Shown piece after piece: positions 6,201 to 64,000 of a DNA stretch of 64,000 nucleotides. The stretch comes from Xestospongia muta (taxonomy: Eukaryota; Porifera; Demospongiae; Haplosclerida; Petrosiidae), in NCBI GenBank assembly GCA_963693285.1, contig OY848930.1, positions 2,294,001 through 2,358,000 of the forward strand. The letters are read 5' to 3'. Each line of letters starts with the position of its first letter. Positions within the stretch are counted from its first letter, which is position 1. A program made the position numbers and the translations under genes. The notes below the pieces were generated by a model, which made no database searches, was not told the origin of the DNA, and was given only the letters and a program-made list of their open reading frames with translations.

Positions 6201-9200
6201 AATGCACATTAAAGTAACCATTTGAACATTACATGGCAAAAATTATACCTGAGTCATTGAGTAATGGCCTTCAGCATGATCAAAATAAAGAACTAAAGTT
6301 TTCTCCAACAACTGATTACCAAACAAGAGTCGACCTTTGTTAATAGTACAGTGAAATGTAGGTTGAATTGCTGTAATCCAACCACCTCCTGTAGTGTCAT
6401 CCAGATCTGTAGGACATAGTCAGAGTTTTCTTGTAAAAGATATCAAGTTAATATATAAACAAAGACGACTACATTATAACATTCATCTATCTATACCTGT
6501 GTCATCTGCTTTTGGTTTGCCCCACTGATCATATATATCACTCCTAGATAAATAAAAAAGTCGTTTATTATCTCTTTGCTTATTTATTTAATCATTCATT
6601 TACCTGTTATACCAATGATATTCAAGCCCATTCAATTGCAAAAATATCAATGAACTTTTCTTGTTAGCATATGCAGAAGTTTGAGCTGAACAAATCTTGC
6701 AACGTACTTCATTATCTAACAATAATATTGACAATATTGTAAATTTGTCCTATAATTCTCCATTATAGTACTTGCAATAGAAATTCATTTGTTATTGTGT
6801 GGTCAAAATATTCAGTTATACTCAATTTGTATATTCAATAATTGCATACAACAACAGAATAAGAAGTTGTGAAATAGCATACACAACACACAGTCTAAAA
6901 CAATGATGACTGTCTGTGGCTGGTCAAATTTCTTTCATAATGATTTGATAAAAACTTTTATGCAGTGTCAGCTTCAACATTAGTGTTAAGAGTAGCAATA
7001 TTAATGACAAACTAGCTTGTATCAAGTCTATAGTATTCCTCTGTGATTACTATAGCCACACCACAGCTTCAGCTAACTCTAATTCTCAATATTAGTAAAA
7101 TGATCCTATCATTCTCATTAGGTTCATACTACAGAATTAGTAGTGAGGAATGAACTAATCACACCAAATAAGGTACTAAACAATCTTAACATTGTGGTCA
7201 TGTAAACATAATTAATACATAATCATTTTATAGCTACAAAGTGTGTTTTTACAACATAGCCAGTTATCTATACTTTACTGCATTGCACACCCACAAAGCA
7301 CACATGCACACACACCCACAAAGCACAGTACAAATATCCAAAAAGCAAATGTATACAGTGAGAGACATATCATCCATACTTCTATTATGCTCATAACACA
7401 TCGACCAATGAAATCTTGATAAATATTATAGTAATCACCTGAAGGTTGTAGCTAGCATCAATCATTCCAACGATATTCTTCAATTATTCATCAACCTCCC
7501 AGAAAAACACTTAACGCTCAGGGTATCATTTTACATAGCGTTTGCAAGGTAGAAGTCAGTTATACACATTAGTAAAGTTTCTACTGATTTCTCAAACATT
7601 ACACCTTCAATAAATTCAATACAAACCTTTATCTAAGTGTATAACATATACTACTACTTAAGTTTTGGTCTGTGACTTTATGTACACACTAAGACAATAT
7701 CATTGTTACAGGCAACTGTCTATAAACATGAAGAGATTGTTGCAAAAACTGTTGCTTACAATCAATAATTCAGATAATATTCTAAACCAAAACAATGTAA
7801 ACAGTTTCATTACATGAGACAATTAGACTATAAACTAACTTGTCACTTTGCACACATATACTGTACATTAACATCAGGTGGTTTATAACACAAGATACCA
7901 AGAAACAAAGGACAGACATTAGTGGAGATCCATTATAAGTCTGCAAGTTCAGTACAAATTACTAGTATGCAGACACTATAATTATGTTACATTCCTGTCA
8001 GATTGACACTCATTACTATGGCTACAAATTATAAATGTCAAATGTATTAATGAAAATATTATAAAACAAAGGTCAAGATTATTACAATGGAAAGTACTAT
8101 TATTATAACTTCCCTTTATACTTGAAAGGTTCATTGTAATTATGTAAGTTATATTATGAGTTAATCAAACAATCTCATTTATACTTGTCTGTGCCAGCTC
8201 AAGAAGGCACTAGTTTTGTGGTACTCTGTAACTATCTCTGACACTGAAATACTCTCAAATAACAAGTAGGTCTTTAGAATGTGACATTATTATTAAACAA
8301 GTCAACTATCTCAGTAACTGCGATCTGTAAACCAAATGCCAGATACAGGCTCATTTGGATTAGCAAATCATAACATTCCTTGGCCCCAGTGGCCTGGAAA
8401 CCATAGTACAAATTGTAGTTATTACCTCAAAGAAAAAGGAAATACAAAGAAGCTACAGGTATTTACTGGGAACAAAGTCAGACAACAGTACAAGATCTTT
8501 GTTTATTGTTTGTGTTTTATGGTATGTAGTGTTTACTTCATATCTCTTTCATAACAAACATATTTACCTCTAATCACTGGCTTTTTCCACCATCTCAAAG
8601 TACCATAGCCATCAGCAATACTGAAGTAAGTAAAAACAAAAACATATAGATTTTGTACCAGGTACTAGATAAAGGTTCAAGACTACATGGCAGGCATTAT
8701 GTAAATTATTTCATTCACAACACTCAAAAGTTGTATACAACAAAAGATTAGAATTGTAAAAGTGTATGTATTTATACATATACACATGTTTCATAACAAT
8801 CTAAGTACCACCTGACAAACATACTGAGCCATGGGGAAAAACTCTAGACCCACACTTAATGAATATAGAAAGTGCTTAGTCTTACCGAATGCTGTCATCT
8901 CTCCGATAAATATGAAGGTTTTTGAATATAATTCGACCCGTAAATAAATTGACACGTAATTGACCTAAATAATTGTAAAGGTATGATGATAAGGTCTATT
9001 CATCAATATAACACTATTGACCAAATATGGTCAAAAGAGGTGGAGAGAAGACCTAAATTCATTTAGATGATAATTATAGATTGAGTTTTAATGACATAGT
9101 CCCACAAAATGTATTTTATTATTCAACTGCTTACCTATCCATCCATCTGTCCATTCAACCATATATGTTTATTCATTGACTAATCAATCAAACTTATTAA

Positions 9201-9694: not shown

Positions 9695-11017
9695 ATGGAC
9701 TCAGTCCCGATCTCTCAGACCACATTCAGGAAATGGGCGTGGCTCAAAATTTGCATTTCTAGGTGGGGCTGTACTCAATTCTCACCTATAACAGTCATGT
9801 CTCATAGATTCAAGAGCAGATCTGGCAAGTTCGGAAGAGGCCTTTCTTCTACTAAACAAGGTCTACTGTCACTACAGGTAGATATTCTGTTAGAATCAAC
9901 TACAGTGACTAAGAAACTTGTAAATATTAGCCTAAAAACCAAAATCTCCTCTTTGAAGATTTTAATAGAACAAGATTTGGGTATCCTACCAGAGATGTAC
10001 ACACTGTCGTACTTAGATGCATGTCCTTTGTTAGAAAAGTCAAGCCTGCAAGAAAATTTTGTTGTTAATGGAGCCACTTTGCAACTAAGACCATGGAGAC
10101 AATGGGAAGATCTGCTTCTTTATGCTTACTTAGGTGATCATGAACTTTGCCTACAGACTATGCATATAAGAGGTCCTACTGAATGGAACAAGTATTGTGC
10201 ATGGGCTGCTCTTTATATTGCCTCACACCAGGGGCACTATCTCTTAGTAGCTAATCTCCTTGAAAAGACTGGTGCTACTATCAATTCAAAGAGCCCTTGT
10301 GGATGGACTGCATTACACGCCTCAGCTAGGACAGGGCAATGGAAAGTGTTATGTATTCTATTGGACAAAGGAGCAGATGTACGATTAAGGGATGCTAATA
10401 GCCTCACAGCTTTTGATTTGGCACGAAAACATGGCCACAAGAAATGTGAGAACTCACTCAACTTCTGTCAGTGGAATTTGCAAAAGCATTATATAGTACA
10501 AGAAAGAAACAAGGAATGTGATCCTACCAAAGCTCGCAGAACAGCTGCAAGACAGAGTCACCTTCAAATGGATTCCACTCTAACACCTTGGCTACATGGA
10601 ACCCAAGGTCAACTTTACATGGCTCAGCTATCCAATCCAGTCTCAATTAAGGAGGTAGCTACATATAAACCAGCCAAGGAAGATAAAGTGCAATTTCCAT
10701 CAATTATGAAGACAAAGGATGATACATCTTACAGCAGTTTAAAAACAAAAACACCATCTGTTCCAAAAACACCAGATATAGCTGATGAAGATACCTTGGA
10801 CAATGATGAAAGATTTGACTTTGACTATGGGTGGTTTGATACACTACGAGCACAACAATTGATACCATCAACTAATGATATTTTCACCTATGCTAATCCA
10901 TCTTCTAATTCGTTAAGACCTCGTTCACTTCTTAATCCTGAGGGGTATACAACTCCTATAATGAACTTTCGTCCTATTCCCACTATTCCAAGGTATTGTC
11001 CCATAGAATATCAATAA
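9695..11017 (+). CDS. Ubiquitin-like plus ankyrin-repeat protein, ANKRD60-like
   Basis: Single-exon gene of 440 codons from the ATG at 9695. The frame opens earlier (stop at 9575), but 9695 is the first in-frame ATG; a second candidate ATG is at 9797. Residues ~57-134 have a ubiquitin-like pattern, ending with a YLD motif, 'LQENFVVNGATLQLRPW' and a hydrophobic strand. Residues ~135-246 carry two to three ankyrin repeats, recognisable by 'ALYIASHQGHYLLVANLLE' and 'GWTALHASARTGQW'. The C-terminal ~190 residues are low in recognisable domains, basic then acidic, and proline-rich at the end. The UBL-then-ankyrin order matches vertebrate ANKRD60, which has no well-defined function. The gene is divergent from BLTP1 and convergent with the coiled-coil gene. 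An AATAAA at 11242-11247 is a plausible polyadenylation signal. Family assignment is moderate; the gene itself is well supported. Confidence 0.8.
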   Translation: MDSVPISQTTFRKWAWLKICISRWGCTQFSPITVMSHRFKSRSGKFGRGLSSTKQGLLSLQVDILLESTTVTKKLVNISLKTKISSLKILIEQDLGILPEMYTLSYLDACPLLEKSSLQENFVVNGATLQLRPWRQWEDLLLYAYLGDHELCLQTMHIRGPTEWNKYCAWAALYIASHQGHYLLVANLLEKTGATINSKSPCGWTALHASARTGQWKVLCILLDKGADVRLRDANSLTAFDLARKHGHKKCENSLNFCQWNLQKHYIVQERNKECDPTKARRTAARQSHLQMDSTLTPWLHGTQGQLYMAQLSNPVSIKEVATYKPAKEDKVQFPSIMKTKDDTSYSSLKTKTPSVPKTPDIADEDTLDNDERFDFDYGWFDTLRAQQLIPSTNDIFTYANPSSNSLRPRSLLNPEGYTTPIMNFRPIPTIPRYCPIEYQ

Positions 11018-28789: not shown

Positions 28790-29430
28790 TGACAGTTAGT
28801 TGAAGAGGCAGTTAGTCAAGTAGTTTAGTTAAATGATCAGATTGTCAGGCAGTCAGTAAAATCAATGAAATAGTCAGTTGAATTATCATTCAGACAATCA
28901 CTTATGACATCAATCAAATAGACAAATGCCTAGTTGAATACTCAGTCAGTTAGTTCCTAAATAGCCAGTCAGTCCAACAGTCAGTCGATACTATTCAGTC
29001 AGTTAGTCCAACAACAGTCAGTCAATAGCCAGTCAGTCAGTCAGTCAGTCAATGAACAGTCAGTCAATCCAACTGTTACAATCAGTCGATAGCCAGTCGT
29101 CAGTCAGTCAATGAATAGTCAGTCAATAGTCAGTCAATCAAATAGTCATCAGTCAGACAATCTATTCATCAAGTCATCCAATAGCCAAATGTTTAGTTGT
29201 ATGGTCAGTCATTTAATTGCTTCACTGAAGGATCAGTTAGTCTGTCAATCAATCAGTTGAATAAGTTGAATATAGTCAGTGAACAATCAAAAAAACAGTC
29301 AAACAGTTGGAGTCTGTCTGTCATTCTAATAGTCAGTCAATTCGTCAGTCCAATCGTCAGTCAGTAAGTCAATCAAATCCTCAGTAAGTAGTCAGTTCAA
29401 TGGACAGTCATTTAGCAAGTCAAATGTAGT
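28790..29430. repeat. Degenerate CAGT/CAAT-rich minisatellite
   Basis: Dense, imperfect tetranucleotide words (CAGT, CAAT, CCAA, TAGT) in runs such as CAGTCAGTCAGTCAAT repeat over ~640 bp, consistent with decayed tandem-repeat expansion. No coding signal on either strand. Confidence 0.75.
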
Positions 29431-41776: not shown

Positions 41777-42431
41777 CCGTATATCGGCTTATTTGTGCTA
41801 TGATTTTAAACGTGCTATATAAAACATGCGTTTTTTGGGCAATGGCACATTTTAACATACGCATTAATTTGCACTCCAAATGGCCACACCAATTTTCGTT
41901 ACAACAAAGCACGTGGTGTACATGACCAGAAAATGTCAAGCATACTGAACTATTTCAAGAGAAATGCTCCACAGGATGTTGGAGAGTTTCTTTCAGATCC
42001 AACAGATTCATCGTCATCAATCATTACGCTCACAAATGATGAGGTATGTACGCTAACAGAAGCTAAGCCTAAGTGGAGAATGACGGAGCAGTAGGCTTAC
42101 TGTGAGAAGACAAGAGCTGAAATAGGCGGGTATGCTAGCACCAACAGGCGTTACTTGTCATCATAGATCAATGTTTTCACTTACATGTTCATTATGTAAA
42201 GCCACACAAAATAATAACCCCATAACATAATATTTACAATAATCTTGTGAAATTGTACAAATTTACATTTGTATGAATAAAGCTGTCTACGGTATACATC
42301 AGTAGAGGTACATTATGTAAAGCGGCACAAAATAATAACCCCATAACATAATATTTACAATAATCTTGTGAAATTGTACAAATTTACATTTGTATGAATA
42401 AAGCTGTCTACGGTATACATCAGTCGAGGTA
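41777..42431 (+). mobile_element. pogo-like element fragment with transposase N-terminus and duplicated right end
   Basis: Left end TACCGTATATCGGC at 41777; right-end sequence GTCTACGGTA (reverse complement TACCGTAGAC) at 42287-42296 and again at 42408-42417. An ATG at 41932 opens a coding stretch 'MSSILNYFKRNAP...' that resembles the N-terminal (L)xxYFKR block seen before pogo-type transposases in marine invertebrates. A frame-shifted continuation RAEIGGYAST near 42108 resembles the following 'ERAxIGKYA' block. The DDE domain is absent. The last 242 bp are a 121-bp tandem duplication. This is probably a non-autonomous, internally deleted copy; family assignment moderate. Confidence 0.5.
42190..42431. 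repeat. Two tandem copies of a 121-bp unit
   Basis: 42190-42310 and 42311-42431 differ at only three positions or so. Each carries AATAAAG and the element end GTCTACGGTA. The near-identity indicates a recent duplication. Confidence 0.9.
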
Positions 42432-43997
42432 CACAAACATGTACTATCATACAACATTGTAAGCTAATTTTTTTAAATTCTGAAATGAATAATACTTGAG
42501 ATATCAGCTTTGAGACATAACCTCATTTCACCACCAACTAAATGTAGGTTTGTTATTGTTGTATGACATTTTCAATACTTACAGGGCATCATCCATCAGA
42601 ATTCATGACAAGCAATTGGTCAGACACAGAGGGACTCTCACCAGATTTTCAATAAGGTATTCAATACTAAGTATGCTATTAAATACTTACCACTAATTAG
42701 GTAATGACTGTTATCTCCTACATGATTTTGGCCAGTCTTAGTAGTCAGCATGCTATCATTTGACAAAAAGGTTTAGTTAATATTTGCAGACTTTCATTCT
42801 TAGCACTAGTTAGATAATGACCTTGGTCTCCCATATGATGTTGGCCAGTTGGAGTAGGCATGTATGCTGTCATTTGACGAAAGGTTTATTTCACATTTGC
42901 ACACTTTCATTTTATGATTATCAATTTTATGATGTAACCATTTAATGGTTTCATCATAAAATTGATAATTGTAAATCATTAAAAAAATAATCTCTTACCA
43001 TATCAGAAATTTACACAACCATGTATCACCTTTTTTGCTCCATCTCTGAAAGGGGGAGCCTAAAATATAAATCATAAATTACTGTCCATAATAGTCAAAT
43101 AGCTATTTCATTGTACATTTTGGCTATATACTTACTAAAGGGTTGACTCTGAGCAAGCTAAGTCATCTCTAAGCAGCCACAGTTCTTTGTTTTTGGAGCT
43201 GCACGTCATGTGCTAGTCACATGATATAAGGAAGGTGGAGCTAATGCTTCTTTTAGCACATTCACAATAAAAGTAGCTACCAAGAGAGATCTCTCTCATA
43301 TCTCCTTGATTTCTCACGTGAAATGTAAATGAGAATTACTGACTATGTGTTCACAAGTGGTATTTAATTCTTCTACTTCCAGATTTGTAGTATACCAAGC
43401 GGGCATGAGATAATAACATTCAAATCTCACATTTTTTAATAAACATTATTCTGATATATCTTTTCTTAACCTACAGATTAAAACACAGCATTGTCATTAG
43501 TAGCAGTATCAGCTTATAATGGAGGTATGCAATGTCTCACATTCTTATCCCTGATCCTGTGACTTTATTGGAACTATCCAGCAATTATTATTAAGTAGTC
43601 GTCCTCTTATTATACTTCTAGATTGTATAATTTAAAGAAAGTGATCTTTGCCATTGATTAAAGCACATTCTACAAACACAACTGTAAAATATAGACATCA
43701 GAGGCGTGTACATCAATAATACTGATTAATAACTTTTGTGATTATTGTGTCAATTATAATTAGTATCTTTGTTATATTGATGTGATTTTATATTTATACT
43801 GTTTCAACTAATGTTATGCAAAAATGTTTAAACTATTGTTCGTTGGGAATGATACTTGGGATATGTGCTCAATAGTTCCTAATGCTAGGCAGTAACTCTT
43901 CTCATTGTAACAAGATGATAACATGCTTCATTACAATAGCAGGGCTCCATATATGTGTGTTAAATAAACTTACATTCAGACAGACAATGTTCATTGT
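42432..43997. other. Non-coding interval with diverged direct repeats and a hairpin
   Basis: Two ~110-bp diverged direct repeats at about 42697-42806 and 42807-42912 share GGCCAGT, ATCATTTGAC or GTCATTTGAC, and CTTTCATT words. An inverted repeat at 42915-42972 has ~28-bp arms (ATTATCAATTTTATGATG and its complement) and a one-to-two-base centre. No gene evidence. Confidence 0.6.
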
Positions 43998-46900: not shown

Positions 46901-47673
46901 TTAGGTATCCATTTATCTCTTCAATTTTTCAATTGAACCCTATAATTTATCATGTCTGTCCATGCCAACATCCATTCATCTTTTCAAGTGATTCCTATAT
47001 GAAGATTGCTAGGCATTTATCAGTCTCTACTATTTATCAAATGGAGGAAACCTCAATTAAACAATCTTTGTTCTATGACTTCTGCATTGAGGTAGCCATA
47101 ATATTAATGTCGTTCAATGCATGTAGGTTTACATACCCAGTATTAATCATTTTAGATTAATTAGTACTGCATTGACAATACATTTTAGTTGGTAGCCTAA
47201 TGCTTTCTCTATTCTTTTATTCCTTTACAGTACAACTCTGCTGTGAATACTATCAAAATGTCTTTAATTCTGTCCTTGTAAGTAGACTGAATGGGTGGAT
47301 AGATCACAAGCATATGAATATATAGTACCTGTACAATGTATCTTTGATAGCTATGTATCAATCCATTTATTCAATTATTTAACATGTCTGTCCATGCTTC
47401 CTGAATCCATCCATCTATCTTTTCAAGTGATTCCTATATGAATATTGTTAGGCATACATCAGTCTCTACTATTTATCATGGAGGAAACCTCAATTAAACA
47501 GTCTTTGTTCTATGACTTCTGCATTGAGGTAGCCATAATATCAATGTAGTTCAATGCATGTAGGTTTATGTAATATTGTGTTATTATGTATGTGGTATGA
47601 ATATGATTATTGTTCCTGTCCCACAATAACTTATACTGTGTATGTCTAATATGTTGAACTAAAATCAATTTAT

Positions 47674-48700
47674 CACATATTGACAATGAGGCCAGATTTG
47701 TCAGTAGTCACTAATGAAGAGGAGTGGTTGACATATGTGGAACACTTTCAACAATATTGTATGGCTAATGATATCATTGAGGACAAGAAATTGGTGGTTT
47801 TATTTAGTGTTTGTGTTCCGTTGACATACAAACTAATCAAGAATTTGGCATCGCCTAGAAATCCATCTGATTTATCCTTTGATTCAGTTGATTTGGTGTA
47901 GGAGGATTATAGACCCAAGTCTACAGTAACTGTCCAACATTTTAATGAGACAATAGCAACATTTGTAGCTTGTGAAGTGCTTGTGAGCCATCAAGGGAAT
48001 CAAAAGAAATTACCATTACTTATTGTGGAGTCTGAAGGAGCTAATCTACTTGGAAGAGACTGGTTGATGAAGTTGAAACTGGATTGGCACATGGTAAATC
48101 AGATCAGAATGAAAAAAAGAGTTAACAACACTCGTGGAAAGACACTAATGAACTAGGTACCATCAAAGGTGTATCTGCCAGCATCATAATAGAAGAAGGA
48201 GACACTCCAAAATTTTGTCGTCCACACCCAGTACCAATTGCACTCTGTTCAAAGGTAGATAAGAAACTCTAAAGACTAAAGTCTATAGGAGTACTGGAAA
48301 AAGTGGAATTTGCAGACTGGGCAGCACCCATTGTTCCAGTATTGAAGGATGATGGTAATGTTTGAATTTGTGGTGATAAAATGACCATTAATAAAACATC
48401 AAAAGTGGACCTGTATCCACTCTCGAGAGTGGATGAGCTTTTCACAGCAATGTCCGGTGAAGTGTTTTTTTCAAAGTTAGACGTAACACATGTGTATCTT
48501 CAACTACAATCATAAAGACAGTATGTCACAATAAACACCCACAGAGTACTCAATAAATACACAAGTTTACCGTTTGGAACCAACTGTTAATTTATGTATA
48601 TCCACTCAAAGAAGGAATTTACCAGACTGGTATCATAATACTATTTAATTTGGTTTTAAATGTGCAAGTTTTTTTCTAAGCGGGGAAGGAATGTAATAAG
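47674..48700 (+). mobile_element. Gypsy-type retrotransposon fragment 1 (gag, protease edge, RT, 3' end; deleted)
   Basis: gag N-terminus from ~47683 (EEEWLTYVEHFQQYCMANDI), interrupted by TAG at 47899. An abrupt join near 47972 leads to the pol segment with LLGRDWLMKLKLDW. Reverse-transcriptase N-terminal half follows near 48160-48590 (KVDLYPLSRVDELFTAMSG) with several stops. It then jumps to the element's 3' end (RRNLPDWYHNTI) and purine tract GGGGAAGGAA at 48683, followed by an LTR-like TGTAATAAGTGTTATTA. Internally deleted and inactive. Confidence 0.8.
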
Positions 48701-49337
48701 TGTTATTAAGTATGTGTTATGAATATTATTATTGTTATTGTCCCACCATAACATGATATTGTGTATGTTATAAGTGTCTAATGTGTTATTGTCTTTTACA
48801 GTTGGTACAACTTACAATGAAGAATGTTCTAAACTCTGATGTAAATATTATCAATATCTGTTCAATATTTGTCCTGGTAAGGAGAGTGAATGTCTGGATA
48901 GATTGCTGAGCATATGAATAGATGCCACAAGTATAATGTATCATTTAAAAGCTATGTATCAATCCACTATCATGTCTTGTCATTACATCCATCCATTTAT
49001 CATTTAACAGATGCCATTATGAATATATTATGAGATTTAGCAGTCTTGACTATTATCAAATCATGGAACCCTCAATTAAGCAGACTCTATTCATGTTCCA
49101 CAACTGGTCATGTAAATTGTTCTTTGTTCTATGACTTCTGCTTTGAGGTAACCATAATATTAATGTAGTTCAATGCATGTAAGTATACATACCCAGTGTT
49201 AACTACTTTAGATTGATTAATACTGCATTGACAATACATTTTAGTTGGTAGTCTAATGCTTTCTCTATTCCTTTTGTTTCTTTACAGTGTATTTTGATAG
49301 CTATGTATCAATCCATTTATTCAATTATTTATCATAT

Positions 49338-51745
49338 CTAAATTTTGTCGTCCAGGCCCAGTACCGATTGTTCCAGTATTGAAGGATGATGAGAATGTTT
49401 GAATTTGTGGTGATTATAAGATGACCATCAATAAAACATCAAAAGTGGACCTGTATCCACTCTCGATAGTGGATTACCTTTTCACAGCAATGTCCGGTGA
49501 AGTGTCCTTTACAAAGTTAGACTTATCACATGTGTATCTCCAACTACAATCATCAAGGCAGTATGTCAATAAACACCCACAGAGTACTCTATAGATACAC
49601 AATGTTACCGTTTGGAGTGTCGTCAGCACCAGGCATTTTTCAATTAGTCATGGATAACCTCCTGCAAGCGATGACACATGTTGTGGCATACTTTGACGAC
49701 ATATTGATCTCTGGTAGGTCAGAACAAGAACATCTCGATAACCTAGAACGTGTTTTCAAGAAATTTTTGGAAGCAGGAATGCGTCTAAAGAGTGAGATAT
49801 GTCAATTCATGCTGCCAGAAGTGGATTATCTGGGACATCGAATCACAAAAGAAGGTATCAAACCAACGGACAAAAAGGTCAGGGCAATCACGCATGCACA
49901 TACACCCAACAATGTATTTGAGTTGAGATCATTTTGGGGCTTATTAATTTTTACAATAAATTCTTACCAAACCCTTCTTCTGCTTTGAGTCCCTTATATC
50001 AGGTACTCCATAAGTCGAGAAGATGGCAGTGGAGGAAAGACCAAGATAAGATAGAGTGTTTACAGAAGCCAAGTTGTTGTTAAAGTACCCTGCCTATTAA
50101 CTCATTATGACTGGAGCAAACACCTCACCCTCACATGTGATGCTTCACCCTATGGGATAGGAGTGGTACTGTCATGTAAGTTAGACAATGTGATGAAAAA
50201 CCCATAGCATATGCTAAATATAGCAGAATTGAAGTATGCTCAGATCAACAAGGAGTCGGTCGCCATTATTTTTGGTATAACTAAATTTCATAAGTACCTT
50301 GTGGGTCACAAATTTACTATTTATACAGATCATAAGCCTTTAATATATCTATTTGGAGAAAACAAAGGCATTCTTATGACAGCATCCAGATGGGGTTTTT
50401 AGCAGCTATGAGTATTTGGTTCAGTAAAAACCTGGGAAGGAGTTGGCGAATGCGTATGGACTCACCCATCTTCCATTGTCGAACATGGGTCAAGAGATTC
50501 CACAACAACGGAGCTAATTAATCTATCAAGAGTGAGGCAGGTGATAAGACACGGGTAGGAAGATAATGTTGAAGGAGATGTAGACTTGAAGCCATATGTA
50601 AGGCATAATTTGGAGCTAAACGTATTAGACAACTGTATCCTGTTTGGATCTCATGTGGTTGTTCGACCATATTGCAGAAAGATGGTCTTAGATGAACTTC
50701 ATCTATGTCACCCGGGAATATTAAGAACGAAGGCATTGCCAAGGTCATATGTTTAGTGCCCAAGTATGGATGCTGACATTGAAAGGAATGTAGGGAGTGT
50801 CATGTATGTCAATCTAATAGGAACTCTTCAGCATCAGCACCACTACATCTGTGGGAGTATCCAACAACCCCTTAGAGCCGGATTTACATTGACCATGTGG
50901 GTCCAGTTTTAGGTCATACGTTACTAATTGTGGTGGATGGTTATTCGAAACAGAGAGACGATGCCTGTAAACTCGAAATCATCAGCAGATGCGATTGAGA
51001 AGCTCCAACAGTTGTTTTCAAATTTTGGAATACCTGACAAAGTGGTTTCTAATAATGGTACAAAATTTTCTAGTTGTGAATTTAAAGAATTTATGGACAA
51101 CAATGTCATTGTCCACACAGTTGCACCTTATCCATCTAGCAATGGCCAAGCAGAAAGAGCAGTACAAAGGTGTCAAACGTAGAAACAGAACCAGACTGAT
51201 GGAACTGTGAACATGAAGATTTTTTAGTTATCGTAATACACCCCAGAGTGTAACAGAACACTCACCTGCTGAGTTAATGTTTGGTTGTAAGCTAAAATTG
51301 TGGTTAGATCAGTTACACCCAGACTTCAACAGAAAAGTTCAAGCAAAAATGATTAGGAAAAAAGAGTGTTATGATAGAGGTACTAAGTTATGCAAGTTTA
51401 AGATTGGAGATAACGTGTACCTGAAGAATTTTCATAGGGAGACCAATGGCTACCTGGAGTAATGTCAAGTAAACGGCCTGGCATCTTATGTAGTTAGGTT
51501 GACTGATGGGATGAGAGTTAAAACATCATGTAGATCATCTTGTTGGGATGGAGAAGAAAAAAAAGCTCAGACCAACACCAGTTACTCAGACTGATCCAGT
51601 TAATTACAATTCAATTCAGATGGGAGTCGAATTCACTGAACCTCGATTAAATCAACCAACTGTTAATTTACATAGATCCACTTGTCGAAGGAATTTACCT
51701 GACTGGTATCATAATACTATTTCATTTCGTTTTAAATTTGCAACG
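49338..51745 (+). mobile_element. Gypsy-type retrotransposon fragment 2 (RT, RNase H, integrase)
   Basis: The longest pol relic. RT includes an open 152-codon stretch with LPFGVSSAPGIFQ and the catalytic YFDDIL at ~49690-49710, then the RNase H region with 'KYAQINKESVAIIFGI' and 'YTDHKPLIYLFG' (50225-50360). The integrase H2C2-like region near 50640-50760 is followed by the core with SNGQAERAVQ near 51140-51165 and the C-terminal region ending near 51720. Several stops and shifts separate these blocks. No complete LTR pair was found around it. Confidence 0.82.
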
Positions 51746-52999
51746 TGTTATTAAGTATGTTATGAATATGATTATTGTTCCAGTCCCACCTTAACTTGAT
51801 ATCGTGTATGTTATAAATGTCTAATGTGTTGTATTAAAAACATGTTCTATATCTCTGTGACTCAAGTTATCAGAGTTTACATACCCAGTATTATTAGTAT
51901 TGTATCGACAATCCATTATAGTTGGTAGCCTAATTCTTTCTCTATTCTTATTGTTCTTTTACAGTTGGTACAACTTACAATGAAGAATGCTCCAAACTCT
52001 GCAGTAAATACTATCAATATCTGTTCAATATTTGTCCTGGTAAGGAGAGTGAATGTCTGGATAGATTGCTGAGCATATGAAGAGATGGCAGAAGTATAAT
52101 GTATCATTTAGGAGCTATGTATCAATCTATTTATTCAAGTATTGCATCCATCCATTTATCTTTTAACAGATACCATTATGAATATATCTTGAGATTATCA
52201 AATGGTGGAAACCACAATTAAACAGACTCTATTTATGTTCCACAACTGGTCATGTAATTGTTCTTTGTTCTATGTTCTATGACTTCTGCTTTGAGGTAAC
52301 CATAATATTAATGTAGTTCAATGCATGTAAGTATACGTACCCAGTGTTAACTACTTTATATTGATTAGTAATGTACCCATTGTTAACTACTTTAGATTGA
52401 TTAATACTGCATTGAAAATACATTTTAGTTGGTAGCCTGAAGCTTTCTCTATTCCTTTCGTTTCTTTACAGTGTATTTTGATAGCTATGTATCAATCCAT
52501 TTATTCATTTATTTATCATATCTGTCTATGCATCCATCTATTTAGCTTTTCAAGTGATTCTTATATGAAGATTGCAAGGAATTTATCAGTCTCTACTATT
52601 TATCAAATGGAGGAAACATCAACTAAACAGTTTTTTTCTATGACTTCTGCATTGAGCTAGCCGTAATATTATTGTAGTTCAATGCATGTAGGTTTACATA
52701 CCCAGTATTAATAATTTTAGATTGATTAGTACTGCATCAAAAGTTTGTAGCCTAATTCTTTCTATATTCTTATTGTTCTTTTACAGTTGGTACTTACAAT
52801 GAAGAATGCTCCAAAAACTCTGCCATAAATACTATCATTATCTGTTCAATGTTTGTCCTGGTAAGGAGAGTGAAAGTCTGGATACATTGGTGAGCATATA
52901 AATAGATGGCGCAAGTATAATTCATCATTTGAGAACCATGTATCAATCCATTTATTCAACTATTTATCATGTCTGTCCACGCATCCATCCATTTTTGAA

Positions 53000-53965
53000 A
53001 GGAAGGGAGTGTCATGTATGTCAATCTAATCCTAGGAACTCTTCAGCCCCAGCACCACTACATCCATGGGAGTATCCAACAACCCCTTGGAGCTGGATTC
53101 ATGCGGGTCCAGTTTTGGGCCATACGTTATTAACTGTGTAGAATGCTTACTTGAAATGGATAGATGTGATGCCCTTAAAATGGACGTCATCAGCAGAGAT
53201 GATAGAGAAGCTCCAACAGTTGTTTTCAAATTTTGGAATTCCTGACAAAGTGATTTCTGATAATGGTACACACTAGAATTGCACCTTACCATCCATCTAG
53301 CAATGGCCAAGCAGAAAGAGCAGTACCAATTGTCAAACGGGGAATACAGAACCAGACTGATGAACTGTGAACATGACGATCTGAAGATTTTTATTTACTT
53401 ATCGTAATACCCCCAGAGTGTAATAGGACACTCACCTGCTGAGCTAATGTTGGTCCTAAGCTAAAATTGTGGTTATATCAGTTACACCCAGACCTCAACA
53501 GGAAAGTTCAAGCAAAAATGATTAGGAAAAAGGAGTGTCATGATAGAGGTACTAAGTTATGCAAGTTTAAGATTGGAGATAACGTGTACCTGAAGAATTT
53601 TCATAGGGAGACCAATGGCTACCTGGAGTAATGTCAAGTAAACGGCCTGGCATCTTATGTAGTTAGGTTGACTGATGGATGAGAGTTAAAACATCATGTA
53701 GATCATCTCACATCTTGTTGGGATGGAGAAGAAATAAAGCTCAGACCAGCACCAGTTACTCAACTGAACCAGTTAATTACAATCTAATTCATACGGGAGT
53801 TGAACTCGTTAAACCTCGATCGAAGCAACCAACTGTTACTTTACGTATATTCACTCTTCAATATCCACTCGTCAAAGGAATTTACTAGACTGGTATCATA
53901 ATACTATTTGATTTGGTTTTAAATGTGTAAGTGTTATTATATATGTCTCTAAGGGAGGAAGGAAT
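53000..53965 (+). mobile_element. Gypsy-type retrotransposon fragment 3 (integrase to 3' end)
   Basis: Integrase zinc-binding edge 'CHVCQSNPRNSSAPAP' (~53014), then core pieces including SNGQAERAV near 53300, C-terminal region near 53500-53880 and purine tract with LTR start TGTAATGATGTG at ~53967. It has internal deletions relative to fragment 2 and numerous frameshifts. Confidence 0.75.
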
Positions 53966-54691
53966 GTAATGATGTGTTATTATGTATGTGTTATGAATAT
54001 GATTATCGTTCCTGTCCCACCATAACTTGGTATTGTGTATGCTATAAGTGTCTAAATTCTTTCAATTCTGTCCTCGTAAGGAGAATGAATGGTTGGATGG
54101 GTCAGGAGCATATGAATAGATCGTACCTGTACAATCTATTTTTGATAGCTATGTATCAATCCATTTTTTCAATAATTTATCATGTCTGTCCATGCATTCA
54201 TCCATTTAGCTTTTGAAGTGATCCTTTATGAAGATTGCTAGGAGTTTATCAGTCTCTACTATTTATCCAATGGAGAGAACTTCAATTGAACAGTCTTTGT
54301 TCTATGACTTCTGCATTGAGGTAGCCATAATATTAATGTCGTTCAATGCATGTAGGTTTACATACCCAGTATTAATCATTTTAATTTTATTAGTACTGCA
54401 TTGACAATGCAATGTAGTTGGTAGCCTAACTCTTTCTCTATTCTTATAGTTCTTTTTTGGTACAACTTGCAATGAAGAATGCTCCAAAAACACTGCAGTA
54501 AATACTATCAATATTTGTTCAATGTTTGTCCTGGTAAGGAGAATGAATGGCTAGATAGATGACTGAGCATATAAATAGATGGTACATATGTAATGTATTT
54601 TTGACAGCTATGTAGCAATCCATTTATTAAACTATTTATTATGTCTGTGAGACATATTAACTTACATGTTCATGTATAATGTTATAAATAG

Positions 54692-54867: not shown

Positions 54868-55310
54868 TATCGTATATCGGGAAATATTCACGTTGCTAAA
54901 TTTTTGCAAATTTCACGAATTTAACTCCATCATAAAAATATCCCTCGCCAATTCCTTATAATTATGGGCGTGGCAAATGATTACGCAGAAAATTCGATGG
55001 GTGTGTTTAAATATTTCAAGAAGGAAGAATGTTTTCCTTTACCTGATCATATGGCACCACTATCAACTAAAGTTCCGTCTTCTCCATTGGACGTCCATGC
55101 CTCTTTATAGACATGGTATCAGGAGTCTATTTCAAACGTCTCCATTGTCGAGTGCAGGCGTGAGAAAACGTGTTTTGGGTGTGGTCAAACATTAATAATT
55201 GCAAGTAGGTGGACAACATGGTGTAAATTCGCAAAATTTATATTCGCGAAAAACCACATTTCACCAATTCACAAAAATATCCCAACGTGAAAGTTTCCTG
55301 ATATACGGTA
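54868..55310 (+). mobile_element. Non-autonomous pogo-like element (443 bp) with terminal inverted repeats
   Basis: The left end TATCGTATATCGGGAAATAT is an imperfect reverse complement of the right end, which read from outside is TACCGTATATCAGGAAAC; similarity continues for ~28 bp into TTCACGTT. Inside, near 54991-55110, it encodes 'MGVFKYFKKEECFPLPDHM' followed by PLSTKVPSS, the N-terminal block of the same pogo-type family as at 41932, ending at TAG. It is an internal-deletion derivative lacking the DDE domain. Confidence 0.68.
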
Positions 55311-55990
55311 GTCAGACTGAATTGCTAATTCCTGGATAATGAAGAATATCTAAGATTGTGTTATAATTAATGTTGTGTTTTCTCCATGTGTATCACTGAT
55401 CTATAGTAAGTTTTGTAAAAATTGGTTAGCCAAACTTTTCTCTTATGTCAGTAGGAACAGACTGGAGTTTATATACTGGCACTGGTCTGTGGAATATTTG
55501 TAAGAGTCTAGTCTGTAAAATCTTGTGCAATGTTCTATCTATCTTACAGAGTGTAATAGGTCTTTCATCTTACTTCTTGATTACTTGTGTCTATATATTA
55601 CATTACTCATGATAAGTTCATTCTATTCATTGATATCTCACTTTACTATATCTACAGGTATTAAATATTACACATAAGAGATTGTGGATTACCTTTTACT
55701 TATATCTTTATGTATCATAATTAAGAAAGTAAACATTTTTTCACATAATTTTGTTGTGTTCTCTTTCTTTATAAATCTAGCCCTACCTTCTAGATAATAA
55801 CGAAAGTTTAAATAAATATTCTTGATTTATATTCAGGTTTATATAATATACTGGATAATGCCCATTTTTTACCAGTTTATATGTTATCTTGTATATCACC
55901 CATACACACACTCACATACAAGCAGATGAAGCACTTAATAATTGGTAAGTATATTAATAATATATAAACATTAACTGTTACTTTGACAAT
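55311..55990. other. AT-rich spacer before the 13-exon array
   Basis: I saw no coding exon here with confidence. It precedes the inverted repeat at 55998. Confidence 0.4.
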
Positions 55991-55997
55991 ATAATTT

Positions 55998-57946
55998 AAT
56001 ACTACCAAATGTAATACTACCAAATGTAACACTGCCAAATGTAATACTGCCAAATGTAACATTGTCAATATAATATTGTAACATCAGTGTAAAATACGTT
56101 ATTACTCTTATTTCTGTTTTGTTTCTATAGCATCGTTGGACATCAGGATCAAGGCTCAAGACACTCATCTATCTCAAACAGCCTGAGGGTGTAAGTTTAC
56201 AGCATACACTACTAGTTAGATTAATTCATAATACATCATTACTCTTATTTCTGTTTTGTTTCTATAGCATCGTTGGACATCAGGATCAAGGCTCAAGACA
56301 CTCATCTATCTCAAACAGCCTGAGGGTGTAAGTTTACAGCATACACTACTAGTTAGATTAATTCATAATACATCATTACTCTTATTTCTGTTTTGTTTCT
56401 ATAGCATCGTTGGACATCAGGATCAAGGCTCAAGACACTCATCTATCTCAAACAGCCTGAGGGTGTAAGTTTACAGCACACACTACTAGTTAGATTAATT
56501 CATAATACATCATTACTCCTAATTTCTGTTTTGTTTTTGTAGCATCGTTGGACATCAGGATCAAGGCTCAAGACACTCATCTATCTCAAACAGCCTGAGG
56601 GTGTAAGTTTACAGCATACACTACTAGTTAGATTAATTCATAATACATCATTACTCTTATTTCTGTTTTGTTTCTATAGCATCGTTGGACATCAGGATCT
56701 GGGCTCAAGACACTCATCTATCTCAAACAGCCTGAGGGTGTAAGTTTACAGCACACACTACTAGTTAGATTAATTCATAATACATCATTACTCCTAATTT
56801 CTGTTTTGTTTTTGTAGCATCGTTGGACATCAGGATCTGGGCTCAAGACACTCATCTATCTCAAACAGCCTGAGGGTGTAAGTTTACAGCATACACTACT
56901 AGTTAGATTATAACTAATACATCATTACTCTTAATTTTTGTTTTGTTTCTGTAGCATCGCTGGACATCAGGATCAAGGCTCAAGACACTCATCTATCTCA
57001 AAGAGCCTGAGGGAGTAAGTTTACAGCATACACTACTAGTTAGATTAATTCATAATACATCATTACTCCTAATTTTTGTTTTGTTTCTGTAGCATCGCTG
57101 GACATCAGGATCAAGGCTCAAGACACTCATCTATCTCAAAGAGCCTGAGGGAGTAAGTTTACAGCATACACTACTAGTTAGATTAATTCATAATACATCA
57201 TTACTCTTAATTTCTGTTTTGTTTCTGTAGCATCGCTGGACATCAGGATCTGGGCTCAAGACACTCATCTATCTCAAAGAGCCTGAGGGAGTAAGTTTAC
57301 AGCATACACTACTAGTTAGATTAATTCATAATACATCATTACTCTAATTTCTGTTTTTTTTTATAGCATCGTTGGACATCGGGATCAAGGCTCAAGACAC
57401 TCATCTATCTCAAAGAGCCTGAGGGAGTAAGTTTACAGCATACACTACTAGTTAGATTAATATAATTCATAATACATCATTACTCTTAATTTCTGTTTTG
57501 TTTCTGTAGCATCGCTGGACATCAGGATCTGGGCTCAAGACACTCATCTATCTTAAAGAGCCTGAGGGAGTAAGTTTACAGCATACCCTACTAGTTAAAT
57601 TAATTCATAATACATCATTACTCTTAATTTCTGTTTTGTTTCTGTAGCATCGTTGGACATCAGGATCAAGGCTCAAGACACTCATCTATCTCAAAGAGCC
57701 TGAGGGAGTAAGTTTACAGCATACACTACTAGTTAGATTAATTCATAATACATCATTACTCTTAATTTTTGTTTTGTTTCTGTAGCATCGTTGGACATCG
57801 GGATCTAGGCTCAAGACACTCATCTATCTCAAACAGCTTGAGGGTGTAAGTTTACAGCATACACCACATTTTGACATGTAATGACTGGCAGTGTTACATT
57901 TGGCAGTGTTATATCATTGGTAGTAATACATTTGGTAGTATTACAT
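55998..57946. repeat. Inverted repeats bracketing the 13-exon array
   Basis: Left arm 55998-56060 is built of AATACTACCAAATGT / AACACTGCCAAATGT words. Right arm 57887-57946 is the reverse complement of the same words (GGCAGTGTTACATTTGGCAG, GGTAGTATTACAT). The arms are ~1.83 kb apart, with the whole array between them. Pairing in the transcript would loop the array out. Confidence 0.75.
56131..57845 (+). CDS. Tandem array of 13 near-identical 60-nt phase-0 exon-like units
   Basis: Units: 56131-56190, 56268-56327, 56405-56464, 56543-56602, 56680-56739, 56818-56877, 56955-57014, 57093-57152, 57231-57290, 57367-57426, 57510-57569, 57648-57707, 57786-57845. Period 136-143 bp, mostly 137-138. Each is preceded by a pyrimidine-rich acceptor (TTTCTATAG, TTTTTGTAG or TTTCTGTAG) and followed by GTAAGT. 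The 20 codons read HRWTSGSRLKTLIYLKQPEG. Variants: Arg8 to Gly in units 5, 6, 9 and 11; Gln17 to Glu in units 7-12; Pro18 to Leu in unit 13. No stop in any copy. Spliced end to end they would encode a 260-residue repeat; being symmetric they could also be skipped or chosen singly. No 5' or 3' constant exons were recognised, so expression is unproven. Confidence 0.6.
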
Positions 57947-57949
57947 AGT

Positions 57950-58940
57950 TACAGTAAAATGTTATGTATCTGTATCTATACTTCCCTATATCCTATATCT
58001 TGTATATCATACACTATTATATAATCTCCAACAGTAGGTGACAGTGAGTATTAAAAATTAAAATTTAAAGTATTAAACAGTAATGCACTTTAGTGCAAAG
58101 GACAAAGGTGAGTATGTCAGCCGGTCAGCCAGAGGCAGCTAATGAAGTCAGAAGCAACTAAATAATTATACATACCAAAGTTTATTAGATGGGAAATGAG
58201 GATTAATTTAATCTGAGGTGTGGTCAAAATAAGCCACACCCTAAATATTTAGTGGGTGTGGCTATCAAAGCTTAATGAGCAGGTGTGGTATTTCCAGTTA
58301 GATTTGTGGGTGTATTTATAATTTGGGTGTGGTTATAATACAACTCGCCCATTGCCATACTTTTTTTAGGTTTATTATGATATGGTTCTCTGTTGATATT
58401 ACAGTACTGCATGTGCTTTTTGTGTGCCTTAACAAAATTGTCTTTTAAAAGGTTATGGTAAGGTCAGCTTTAATTTTATTACTGTTTGTACTGTACTTAA
58501 ATATAACTAAATTCAAATGTTATGATTCATTTTTATAAGATATTAAATTATGTTTTTGAGCATATTTGGCCAATCTAAAGGTTGGAAGGGTGGGAGAATG
58601 GCAATACAGCACCACCTCTGTATGTCTGGAGTATCATATGTATCTTAGCTATCATGTACTGAGAGTATTGTTGATCCTCAGTTAATTCTTAAAGAGAGTT
58701 TTATCTTTAAGGGATTGCATTAGGAATATTACTAAGCCTTTATTAGTCTTGACTATTTATTCCTCAATTAAACGTAGTCTATTTGTTATCCATGACTGGT
58801 CATGTAAATTTTTTTGTTCTATGACTTCTGCTTTGAGGTTTACTTACCCAGTGTTAAACTACTTTAGATAATAGATTAGTACTGCATCAACAATGCATTA
58901 TAGTTGGTAGCCTAATGTTTTGTCTATTCCTTTATTATTT
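57950..58940. other. Spacer between the 13-exon array and the next Cys-rich unit
   Basis: Non-coding, with repeated GGTGTGG / GGGTGTGGC words near 58215-58335. From ~58660 it rejoins the flank of the 0.8-kb units. Confidence 0.45.
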
Positions 58941-59064: not shown

Positions 59065-60680
59065 TAGCTATGTATCAGATTTGTCAGTAGTAACTACTAG
59101 GGAGACAAAGTGAGATGGCTCTCCACAGTAGCATAGGAGAATTATGCCCTAATGAAGAGGAGTGGTTGACATATGTGGAACGCCTTCAACATTATTGTAT
59201 GGCTAACGATAACGTTGAGGACAAGAAATGCTGAACCCAACCTGATTCTGAAATGTGCTCTTGAACTCGTACTTGCGATTGAGTCGGCAGAGAAGGACAT
59301 GAGAGATATTCAGAGAGCAAAGGTTAATTCCACCCTGACACAAGTTCATATGGTGGACAAGAGAACTCAGAAATTAAAAAGCCTACTTTTTATCGTTGTG
59401 GACGAAACCACTTAGCACCAAGTTGCATATTGAAAGACTCTGTTTGTCATGCAGAAGCCAAGTCGTAGTTAAAGTATTAACTCATTATGACTGCAGTAAA
59501 CACCTCACCCTCACAAGTGATGCTTCACCCTATGGGATAGGAGTGGTACTGTCACATATAAGTTAGACAATGTGATGAAAAACCCATAGCATATGCTAAA
59601 TATAGCAGAATTGAAGTATGCACAGATTTACAAGGAGTCGCTCGCCATTGTGGGTCACAAATTTACTATTTATACTGATTATAAGCCTTCTTATGACAGC
59701 ATCTAGTAACCAGATGGGCTTTACGTTTAAGTGGCAACCAAGGAAGGATTTGGCAAATGCATATGCACTCAGCCACCTTCCATTGTCAGACATGGGTCAA
59801 GAGATTCCACACCAACAGAGCTAATTAATCTATCAAGAGTGAGGCAGCTGATAAGACATGGGTAGGCAGATAATGTTGAAGGAGATGTAGACTTGAAGCC
59901 ATAAATTGGAGCTAAGCATATTAGACAATGCATCTGTTCGACCCTAATGGAGGAAGATGGTCTTAGATGAACTTCATCAATGTCACCTGGGAATAGTCAT
60001 ATGTTTGGTGGCCAAGTATGGATGCTGAGATTAAAAGGAAGGTGTGGGAGTATGATGTATGTCAATCTAATAGGAACTCTCCAGCACAAGCACCATTACA
60101 TCTGTGGGAGTATTGAACAACCCCTTGGAGCCTGATTCACATTGACCATGCAGGTCCAGTTTAGGTCATACATTATTAATTGCGGTGGATGCTTATTCGA
60201 AATGGTGAGATGCCATGCTTGAAGAATCGACGTCATCAGCAGAGGCGATAAAGAAGTTCCATGATAGAGGTACTAGGTTACGCAAGTTTAAGATTGGAGA
60301 TAATGTGTACCTGAAGAACTTTCTTAGGGGAGACCAATGGCTACCTGGAGTAATGTCAAGTAAATGGCCCGGTATCATATGTAGTTAGGTTGACTGGTGG
60401 ATGAGAGTTAAAACATCATGTAGATCATCTCGGATCTCATTGGGATGGAGAAGAAAGAAAACTCAGGCCAGCACCAGTTACTCAGACTGACCCAGTTAAT
60501 TACAATCCAATTCGGACGGGAGTCGAATTCATTGAACCTCGATCACATGAACCAACTGTTACTTTACGTAGATCCACTTGTCGAAGGAATTTACCAGACT
60601 GGTATCATAATACTATTTGATTTGGTTTTAAAAGTGCAAATGTTATTATGTATCTTTCTAAGGGGGGAAGGAATGTAATA
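59065..60680 (+). mobile_element. Gypsy-type retrotransposon fragment 4 (gag, RNase H, integrase end)
   Basis: gag N-terminus NEEEWLTYVE at ~59152; gag C-terminal part with a degraded zinc knuckle 'FYRCGRNHLAPSC' at ~59389-59430, in which the first Cys is Phe; RNase H scraps near 59480-59720; integrase scraps near 59940-60250; C-terminal stretch near 60260-60620; purine tract AGGGGGGAAGGAA at ~60660 and LTR start. Many deletions, inactive. Confidence 0.75.
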
Positions 60681-61384
60681 ATGTGTTACTAAGTATGTGT
60701 TATGAATATGATTATTGTTCTAGTCCCACCATAACTTTGTATTGTGTATGCTATAAGTGTCTCAAGTTATCACAGTTTACATACCCAATATTAATCATTT
60801 TAGATTGATTAGTAATGTATCCACAATGCACTATAGTTTGTAGCCTAATGCTTTCTCTATTCCTTTTGTTTTTACAGTTGGTACAACTTAGTTTTCAATG
60901 AAGTTGGCTGCAACAACTCTGCTGTGAATACTATCAATATCTGTAAAATGTTTGTCCTGGTAAGGAGAGTGAATGGCTGGATAGATAGGAGAGTGAATGG
61001 CTGGATATATTTCTGAACTTATGAATATATTGTACCTTGTATTGTATCTCTTGATAGTTATGTATCAACCCATTTATTCAACTATTTATCATGTCCGTCC
61101 ATGCATCCATCTAGTTTTCTTTTAACTGATCCCTATATGAACATTGCCAGACATTTATCAGACTTGACTACTTATTGAATGGTCATGTAAATTGTTCTTT
61201 GTCCTGTGACTTCTGCTTTGAGGTAGCCATAATATTAAAGTAGTTCAATGCATGTACCTTTACGTACCTAGTATTAATAATATGAGATAGATTAGTACTA
61301 CATGGACAATGCATTTTAGTTTATAGCCCTATGTTTTCTCTATTCTTATTATTCTTTTACAGTTGGTACAGTTTTTGATGAAAA

Positions 61385-61935
61385 GGAAGGTGTGGGAGTA
61401 TGATGTATGTCAATCTAATAGGAACTCTCCAGCACAAGCACCATTACATTTGTGGGAGTATTGAACAACCCTTTGGAGCCGGATTCACATTGACCATGCA
61501 GGTCCAGTTTAGGTCATACATTATTAATTGCGGTAGATGCTTATTCGAAATGGTGAGATGCCATGCTTGTAAAATCGACGTCATCAGCAGAGGCGATAAA
61601 GAAGTTCCATGATAGAGGTACTAGGTTACGCAAGTTTAAAATTGGAGATAATGTGTACCTGAAGAACTTTCTTAGGGGAGACCAATGGCTACCTGGAGTA
61701 AAGAAAACTCAGGCCAGCACCAGTTACTCAGACTGACCCAGTTAATTACAATCCAATTCAGACGGGAGTCGAATTCATTGAACCTCGATCACATGAACCA
61801 ACTGTTACTTTACGTAGATCCACTCGTCGAAGGAATTTACCAGACTGGTATCATAATACTATTTGATTTGGTTTTAAATGTGCAAATGTTATTATGTATT
61901 TTTCTAAGGGGGGAAGGAATGTAATAATGTGTTAC
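61385..61935 (+). mobile_element. Gypsy-type retrotransposon fragment 5 (copy of the 3' part of fragment 4)
   Basis: Nearly identical to 60030-60680 except for a ~110-bp deletion (missing the stretch after CTACCTGGAGTAA). It starts inside a Cys-rich core at 61384, so it inserted in or was joined to that exon-like core. Confidence 0.8.
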
Positions 61936-62235
61936 TAAGTATGTGTTATGAATATGATTATTGTTCTAGTCCCACCATAACTTTGTATTGTGTATGCTAT
62001 AAGTGTCTCAAGTTATCACAGTTTACATACCCAGTATTAATCATTTTATGTATCCACAATGCACTATAGTTGATAGCCTAATGCTTTCTCTATTCCTTTT
62101 GTGCAACAACTCTGCTGTGAATACTATCAATATCTGTAAAATGTTTGTCCTGGTAAGGAGAGTGAATGGCTGGATATATTTCTGAACTTATGAATGTATT
62201 GTACCTTGTATTGTATCTCTTGATAGCTATGTATC

Positions 62236-62329
62236 AACCCATTTATTCAACTATTTATCATGTCTGTCCATGCAAAGAAAACTGGATGGATGCATGGACA
62301 GACATGATAAATAGTTGAATAAATGGGTT
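62236..62329. repeat. Perfect 39-bp inverted repeat
   Basis: 62236-62274 and 62291-62329 are exact reverse complements with a 16-nt loop. The left arm is the normal unit sequence (AACCCATTTATTCAACTATT...); the right arm is the same stretch inverted, as produced by a fold-back replication error. Confidence 0.9.
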
Positions 62330-63469
62330 TTCTTTTAACTGATCCCTATATGAACATTGCTAGACATTTATCAGACTTGACTACTTATCGAATCGAGGAA
62401 ACATCAATTAAACTAACTGCATTTGTAATCCACAACTGGTCATGTAAATTGTTCTTTGTTCTGTGACTTCTGCTTTGAGGTAGCCATAATATTAAAGTAG
62501 TTCAATGAATGTACCTTTACGTACCTAGTATTAATAATATGAGATAGATTAGTACTACATGGACAATGCATTTTAGTTGGTAGTCTAATGTTTTCTCTAT
62601 TCTTATTATTCTTTTACAGTTGGTACAGTTTTTTAAGAAGAATGCTCCAACAACTCTGCTGTAAGTACTATCAATATCTGTAAAATGTTTGTCCAGGTAA
62701 GGAGAGCAAATAGCTGGATAGATTGCTGAGCATATGAATAGATGGCACAAGTACAATGTATCATTTAAGAGCTATGTATCAATCCATTTATTCAACTATT
62801 TATCATGTTTGTGCATACATCCATCTATTTATTTTTTAACGAAGCCTCAATTTAACAGACTCCATTTATGATCCATAACTTGTCATGTAAATCGTTCTTT
62901 GTTTTATGACTAATGCATTGAGGTAGCCATAATATTAATGTAGTTCAATGCATGTACCTTTACGTACCTAGTATTAATCATTTTAGATTAATTAATACTG
63001 CATTGACAATACATTTTAGTTGGTACCCTAATGCTTTCTCTATTCTTTTATTCCTTTACAGTACAACTCTGCTGTGAATACTATCAAAATGTCATTAATT
63101 CTGTCCTTGTAAGTAGACTGAATGGGTGGATAAATCACGAGAATATGAATATATAGTACCTGTACAATGTATCTTTGATAGCTATGTATTAATCCATTTA
63201 TTCAATTATTTAACATGTCTGTCCATGCTTTCTGAATCCATCCATCTATCTTTTCAAGTGATTCCTATATGAATATTGTTAGGCATACATCAGTCTCTAC
63301 TATTTATCATGGAGGAAACCTCAATTAAACAGGCTTTGTTCTATGACTTCTGCATTGAGGTAGCCATAATATCAAGTTCAATGCATGTAGGTTTAAGTAA
63401 TATTGTGTTATGTATGTGGTATGATATTGTTCCTGTCCCGCAATAACTTGATACTGCGTATGTCTAATA

Positions 63470-64000
63470 TGTTGAACTAAAAACATTTTCTATATCTCAA
63501 TGTCCCTCTCTCAATTTATCGCATATTGGCAATGAGGCCAGATTTGTCAGTAGTCACTACTAGGGAGACAAACCGAGATGTTTTTCCACAGTAGTATGGG
63601 AGAATTAAGCCTTAATGAAGAGGAGTGGTTGACATATGTGGAACACCTCCAACAATATTGTATGGCTAATGATATCATTGAGGACAAGAAATTGGTGGTT
63701 TTATTTAGTGTTTGTGTTCCGTTGACATACAAACTAATCATGAATTTGGCATCGCCTAGAAATCCATCTGATTTATCCTTTGATTCGGTTGATTTGGTGT
63801 AGGAGGATTATAGACCCAAGTCTACAGTAACTGTCCAACATTTTAAAGAGACAGTAGCAACATTTGTAGCTGAGCTGAGATGACTATCCCAGTTTTGTGA
63901 ATATGAGGAGACATGCTACGTGATCATTATTGTGTGATATTCAACAACTTAATATTCAGGGAAGTCTGCTAGCTGAATCCAACCTGATTCTGAAATGTAC
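63470..64000 (+). mobile_element. Gypsy-type retrotransposon fragment 6 (gag), continues past the window
   Basis: The LTR-like end ('CGCATATTGGCAATGAGG') is followed by gag from 63533: DLSVVTTRET, then NEEEWLTYVEHLQQYCMAND and on to TAG at ~63800, then VQHFKETVATFVAELR. Unlike fragment 1 it is not deleted at that point and reads further into gag before the window ends. Confidence 0.78.

Follow-up and report, generated by a model that had tools for sequence, protein, structure and literature searches.

Foldback elements with internally repetitive inverted repeats are known from sea urchins as the TU elements. Circular RNAs are driven by flanking inverted repeats, and pseudogenes derived from circular RNAs exist; SNORD116/SNHG14 are host genes of tandem non-coding exons. 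To our knowledge, subtelomeric and satellite RNAs have mostly been described as unspliced repeat transcripts. Tetris of Drosophila virilis is described as a foldback element able to seed satellites (PMC4079207), avian PO41 as a subtelomeric repeat that is transcribed and has short double-stranded regions (PMC4301066), and human TERRA promoters as a source of subtelomeric transcription toward the telomere (PMC6600276, PMC12242772).

The element that we describe here was found in a 64,000-nt stretch of the sponge Xestospongia muta (the window), which lies on contig C14, and it resembles each of these systems in part. With Tetris-like foldback elements it shares arms made of short tandem units, an association with satellite arrays and the lack of a conserved open reading frame, but its arms are internal, flanking an exon-like array, no target-site duplication was seen in a non-systematic look, and an exon-only copy implies a spliced RNA. 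Like TERRA and PO41, it belongs to subtelomeric repeats of fixed orientation, facing the chromosome end, from which no protein is expected; unlike them, the sponge family has exon-intron units and many interstitial copies, and is known here from DNA alone. The circular RNA loci and pseudogenes offer a parallel in exons placed between complementary arms and in an exon-only genomic copy, although back-splicing is only putative here and, in an array of repeated units, would leave a junction difficult to distinguish from an ordinary one. SNORD116/SNHG14 also consist of repeated non-coding exon-intron units, but a search of seven loci of the sponge family against Rfam gave no family at or above the gathering score, and the only match in the window stretch was to SNORD45, far below threshold (20.1 bits against a gathering score of 42). 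Finally, the Dscam exon clusters, like the window, have tandem exons of one size class, whereas the sponge units offer almost no choice of sequence and have no conserved frame.

As to the host, the 18,990-base contig C28 encodes a COX1, and over 447 translated residues it is 100% identical to a Demospongiae cluster of 19 members, the representative of which has the Xestospongia muta code; this indicates a demosponge, either X. muta itself or a relative. The preliminary description of the window reported 13 exon-like units of 60 nt at 56131-57845, each with a pyrimidine-rich AG acceptor before it and GTAAGT after it, and direct reading of the sequence confirmed both the units and their signals (Table 1). 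Each unit has the form CATCG...GGGT or CATCG...GGGA, the preceding tract ends in ATAG or GTAG, and successive units start 136-143 nt apart. Tandem Repeats Finder delimits the array at 56093-57864, with a period of 138, 12.9 copies, 94% matches and a score of 3044. Variable aligned sites number 8 of 60 in the exon-like part and 14 of 61 in the intron-like part, so within this array the exon-like part looks somewhat more uniform.

Table 1. Features of the repeated element in the window (positions are those of the window)
Feature	Position	Strand	Basis
Whole repeated block (5' block, arm, array, arm, 3' block) common to distant loci	55309..58377	+	blastn limits against loci on other contigs
Conserved exon-like stretch of the 5' block, AG/TAGGAACAGACTGG...GAATATTT/GTAAGA	55452..55499	+	MAFFT alignment of flanks; putative exon
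Exon-like 19 nt, CAG/ATGAAGCACTTAATAATTG/GTAAGT	55926..55944	+	Direct reading and flank alignment; putative exon
5' inverted-repeat arm, 15-nt units	55993..56070	+	Repeat finding, arm and duplex comparison
Exon-like unit 1	56131..56190	+	Direct reading, unit alignment
Exon-like unit 2	56268..56327	+	Direct reading, unit alignment
Exon-like unit 3	56405..56464	+	Direct reading, unit alignment
Exon-like unit 4	56543..56602	+	Direct reading, unit alignment
Exon-like unit 5	56680..56739	+	Direct reading, unit alignment
Exon-like unit 6	56818..56877	+	Direct reading, unit alignment
Exon-like unit 7	56955..57014	+	Direct reading, unit alignment
Exon-like unit 8	57093..57152	+	Direct reading, unit alignment
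Exon-like unit 9	57231..57290	+	Direct reading, unit alignment
Exon-like unit 10	57367..57426	+	Direct reading, unit alignment
Exon-like unit 11	57510..57569	+	Direct reading, unit alignment
Exon-like unit 12	57648..57707	+	Direct reading, unit alignment
Exon-like unit 13	57786..57845	+	Direct reading, unit alignment
3' inverted-repeat arm, complementary to the 5' arm	57886..57946	+	Repeat finding, arm and duplex comparison
Exon-like 14 nt of the 3' block, TAG/TGCAAAGGACAAAG/GTGAGT	58094..58107	+	Direct reading and flank alignment; putative exon
GTGTGGTCAAAATAAGCCACACC motif, close to the element's 3' end; served as tag for finding subtelomeric copies	58218..58240	+	Motif search

The array in the window is not unique; it sits in a larger repeated block (approximately 55309-58377) found at many loci, in which the order 5' block, inverted-repeat arm, tandem array, complementary arm and 3' block is conserved. 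We searched the assembly (158 Mb in 28 contigs) with a 270-base query of about two units and obtained at least 227 matches, those listed lying on C14, C3, C12, C13, C4, C15 and C9; when the unit was searched at the protein level, weaker places appeared on C1, C2, C5, C6 and others. The 5' block gave at least 59 matches (40 of 90 candidates were scored), including diverged ones near the ends of C1 to C4. Among the C14 copies similarity is continuous from about 55129, and to the left of that point it is only piecewise. The 19-nt exon-like piece upstream of the array is 16 nt long in the C13 and C15 copies.

We aligned 234 units from 19 loci, and a further seven loci brought the total to 251. The number of units per array ranges from 1 (locus L037) to 20 (L022). 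Unit length, counted over these 251 units with the 14 units of L033 standing outside the count, is 60 nt in 173, 59 nt in 39 and some other value in 12, with 27 unreadable by the pattern. In both C4 arrays every readable unit is 59 nt long (35 of 35; 36 units, one unreadable).

Several other features of these loci were recorded. The element in the window is surrounded by retrotransposon-like coding pieces (47650-54216 and 59170-63802) that are broken and that by eye resemble reverse transcriptase and integrase, and CAGT-rich tandem repeats, along with two copies of a 121-bp unit with 97% matches, occur at 28960-29410 and 42190-42433. Upstream of the C4 and C12 arrays (L022:1926-3852 and L014:1800-3167) a relative of the subtelomeric element is present in inverted orientation, which places two elements head to head. 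The minus strand of L014 has open frames of 240 and 77 aa (7506-8225 and 9768-9998), whose membrane-anchor-like ends are similar; they may belong to a small gene family. L027, the C9 array, has no arm pair and carries ATAAGC in place of the GT donor in at least five of its 15 units; it is perhaps a decaying copy.

The most direct indication of splicing comes from contig C1. Here L033 contains 14 units head to tail and 58-61 nt apart, intronless, with AGT/CATCG junctions exactly at the predicted AG/GT boundaries. A pattern for joined units matched 10 times at one mismatch or fewer, always on C1. The best reading of L033, and the simplest account of it, is that it is a DNA copy of a spliced RNA, and RNA of the family thus seems to have been spliced into the joined-up form at least once. 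The proposal that the units are used as exons and concatenated is in this respect indirectly supported by the 14 units joined at the predicted boundaries, while the protein readings attached to it are not. An alternative for the exon-only array on C1 is that introns were gained in an older minisatellite; however, because the subtelomeric relatives described below carry intron-flanked exon-like units, introns seem to be the ancestral state and the C1 copy a derived one. A second, short exon-only copy, L040, lies approximately 7 kb from L033 and has the same 3' flank, so that the exon-only copies are probably the product of one event. A pattern search of the genome for a joined exon pair of the subtelomeric type found no match; the evidence from exon-only sequence is therefore confined to C1. 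Direct repeats beside the exon-only array were considered as target-site duplications and dropped, since several copies of the stretch are found in this region of C1. Just upstream of the short copy, L040:1-660 is a coding piece, part of which recurs at C1:28152901, and which by eye we take to be hAT-transposase-like.

The splice signals themselves are widely retained. AG is present in 246 of the 251 units and missing in five, and GT is present in 243, with AT in its place in the other eight. Over the consensus sequences of 14 locus groups, the invariant columns amount to 3 of 4 for the splice dinucleotides, 25 of 48 for the intron, 7 of 13 for the tract and 29 of 60 for the exon. The dinucleotides do not clearly exceed the other columns in conservation, and conservation alone is thus no proof of selection on splicing.

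The motif near the 3' end of the element has 83 matches at two mismatches or fewer, against none for the reversed motif used as a control. Fifteen chromosome-size contigs, C1 to C15, make up the assembly except for 259 kb at most, and 45 of the 83 matches, picked from the match list, lie near contig ends, at 25 of the 30 ends of these contigs. All 45 point toward the end, on the minus strand at left ends and on the plus strand at right ends, and among the 83 matches there is no near-end match that points the other way. The distance to the end is known for 38 near-end matches: 31 are within 26 kb, and the four farthest, on C9, C13 and C2, are at 64-120 kb. We read four of the 45 end copies (C4 right, C1 left, C14 right and C8 left). 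These copies are 91-99% alike where they align best, and four to six exon-like units of the pattern CTACAG...GTRAGT, 113-297 nt long, were recognised in each. The subtelomeric relatives keep the exon-intron layout while their exon contents differ. A 23-nt repeat (CATCTCTCCTTCTGAGGGTACAA) expands inside subtelomeric exon-like units at L038:2838-4088 and is present in both L038 and L039; 23 is not a multiple of three. Our search of the open-licence literature turned up no description of comparable subtelomeric repeats in sponges.

Inverted-repeat arms are a regular part of the element. For 27 loci (the test leaves out L032, L033 and L036) we compared the arm match with 100 shuffles; in 22 it exceeded all of them, and no arm pair was found in L027, L029, L030, L034 or L035. 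The arms are built of 15-nt units in the window, L018 and L022, and the predicted duplex energy of the window arms is -92.0 against a shuffle mean of -20.5. The subtelomeric copies have arms as well (98% over 41 nt in L038, L039 and L045, and 36 of 36 in L044), yet a subtelomeric arm agrees with the window arm at only 32 of 45 positions. Such comparisons indicate that the two arms change together, via pairing constraint or conversion; gene conversion can be enough to maintain their complementarity.

Arms of 15-nt tandem units around a repeat array raise the possibility that the element is a non-autonomous foldback-type DNA transposon, in which 15-bp-unit inverted repeats enclose an internal satellite and the splice-like signals are incidental passengers. 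C13 holds family copies in both orientations and family-wide coding constraint is absent, as such an element would allow, and Tetris links foldback structure with satellite arrays (PMC4079207). However, the arms are not terminal, with homology extending several hundred bases past both, and many copies lie in local clusters or close to chromosome ends, as segmental duplication would give. Neither a target-site duplication nor a transposase of its own was noticed in a non-systematic look, and this reading would not account for the exact splice-boundary junctions of the exon-only copy on C1. We consider a foldback transposon possible but unlikely.

The preliminary description offered a 20-residue repeat protein as one product of the array and pointed to a phase-0 open frame in every unit. 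That frame is indeed open in 13 of 13 window units, but it is not the only one; frame +1 is also open in all 13, and frame +2 has a stop in all 13. On C14 frame 0 is open in 33 of 33 units and frame +2 closed in all, whereas on C13 frame 0 has stops in five to six of the 11-14 units per array and frame +2 is open in nearly all units. No frame is open in all loci, and the 59-nt units of C4 are a further obstacle to a 20-residue repeat. The preliminary description had named equal divergence of exon-like and intron-like parts as one of two conditions that would together refute it, and this is what the comparison between the consensus units of the 14 locus groups gave family-wide, 14.4% for the exon-like part and 14.1% for the aligned intron-like part. 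Nor was there a codon-position bias of substitutions across groups, where minor alleles at the three codon positions of frame 0 number 19, 26 and 28. We examined the flanks of L018/L024 and L014/L022 for codon periodicity and take the result as none, the best window having p of about 0.02 among 604 and 1116 overlapping windows. The preliminary description knew of no described family with this unit, and an eight-unit concatenate had no homologue in 5.8 billion proteins.

Two residual signals of coding were observed. The first is a frame-0 synonymous excess in the C14 and C3 arrays, with 10 synonymous and five non-synonymous variants where 27% synonymous is expected (p = 0.002, uncorrected, in 18 tests); the window alone gives p = 0.039, and C14, C13, C15 and C4 give 0.12 to 0.38. 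The second appears when translation starts at the ATG in the exon-like piece upstream of the array and continues across the readable units, joined together. This reading is open for 285 aa in L017, 245 in L018 to L020, 321 in L023 and 185 in L026 (some units omitted), spanning 12-14 units at L017 to L020 and 16 at L023, and the frame is open in four of the seven C13 arrays and one C4 array. It stops after 24 aa in the window, 13 in L009 and L010, 24 in L012 and L013, 101 in L015 and L016, 229 in L022, 161 in L024 and L025, and 1 in L027; the upstream piece of L014 has no ATG, and the pattern found no upstream ATG-bearing exon in L021, L029 to L031 or L035 to L037. The frame of the synonymous excess is not the frame of the long ATG readings. 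Weighing the open frames and these two signals against the early stops, the C13 and C4 arrays, the equal divergence and the missing homologue, we judge the family to be probably non-coding, and tandem exons encoding a 20-residue repeat protein, even at some loci only, to be improbable.

The equal divergence of exon and intron between loci, together with the near identity of units within an array, is what untranscribed satellite DNA would produce if the exon likeness were due to chance and homogenisation. Such an origin is very improbable given the exon-only array on C1 and the subtelomeric relatives, which retain an exon-intron layout despite different exon contents. A Dscam-like cassette of mutually exclusive exons, suggested by the tandem symmetric exon-like units of the window, can hardly be entertained: no frame is conserved, the sole spliced-looking copy joins 14 units rather than one chosen unit, and the window units are near-identical (8 of 60 sites vary), so choice among them would add little diversity.

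We favor the reading, with a probability of roughly 0.6, that the copy in the window is an interstitial member of a multi-copy family of spliced and probably non-coding RNA elements, with relatives in the subtelomeres. The element would be transcribed left to right, that is, toward the chromosome end, and its repeated exons would be spliced together into a tandem-repeat RNA, one molecule of which may have been copied back into C1. Unequal exchange would have changed the number of units, and exchange among chromosome ends may have kept the end copies alike. With less certainty, the arms may form a duplex in the precursor RNA, so that the first unit's acceptor would come to lie near the donor of the last unit, which would favor circular RNA or skipping of the whole array.

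A more far-reaching version, which we put forward tentatively and think rather unlikely in full, is that a telomere-pointing transcription unit lies near almost every chromosome end, its repeated non-coding exons standing between co-evolving arms so that the array would be spliced into a tandem-repeat and possibly circular RNA; such an RNA would have been copied into the genome at least once, and the unit would have seeded the arrays on chromosome arms. The case also cautions that neither open frames nor good splice sites are enough to infer a protein from a tandem array. If true, a subtelomeric unit of repeated exons and introns with jointly changing arms would connect, in a non-bilaterian animal, the amplification of satellites with splicing and with the ends of chromosomes.
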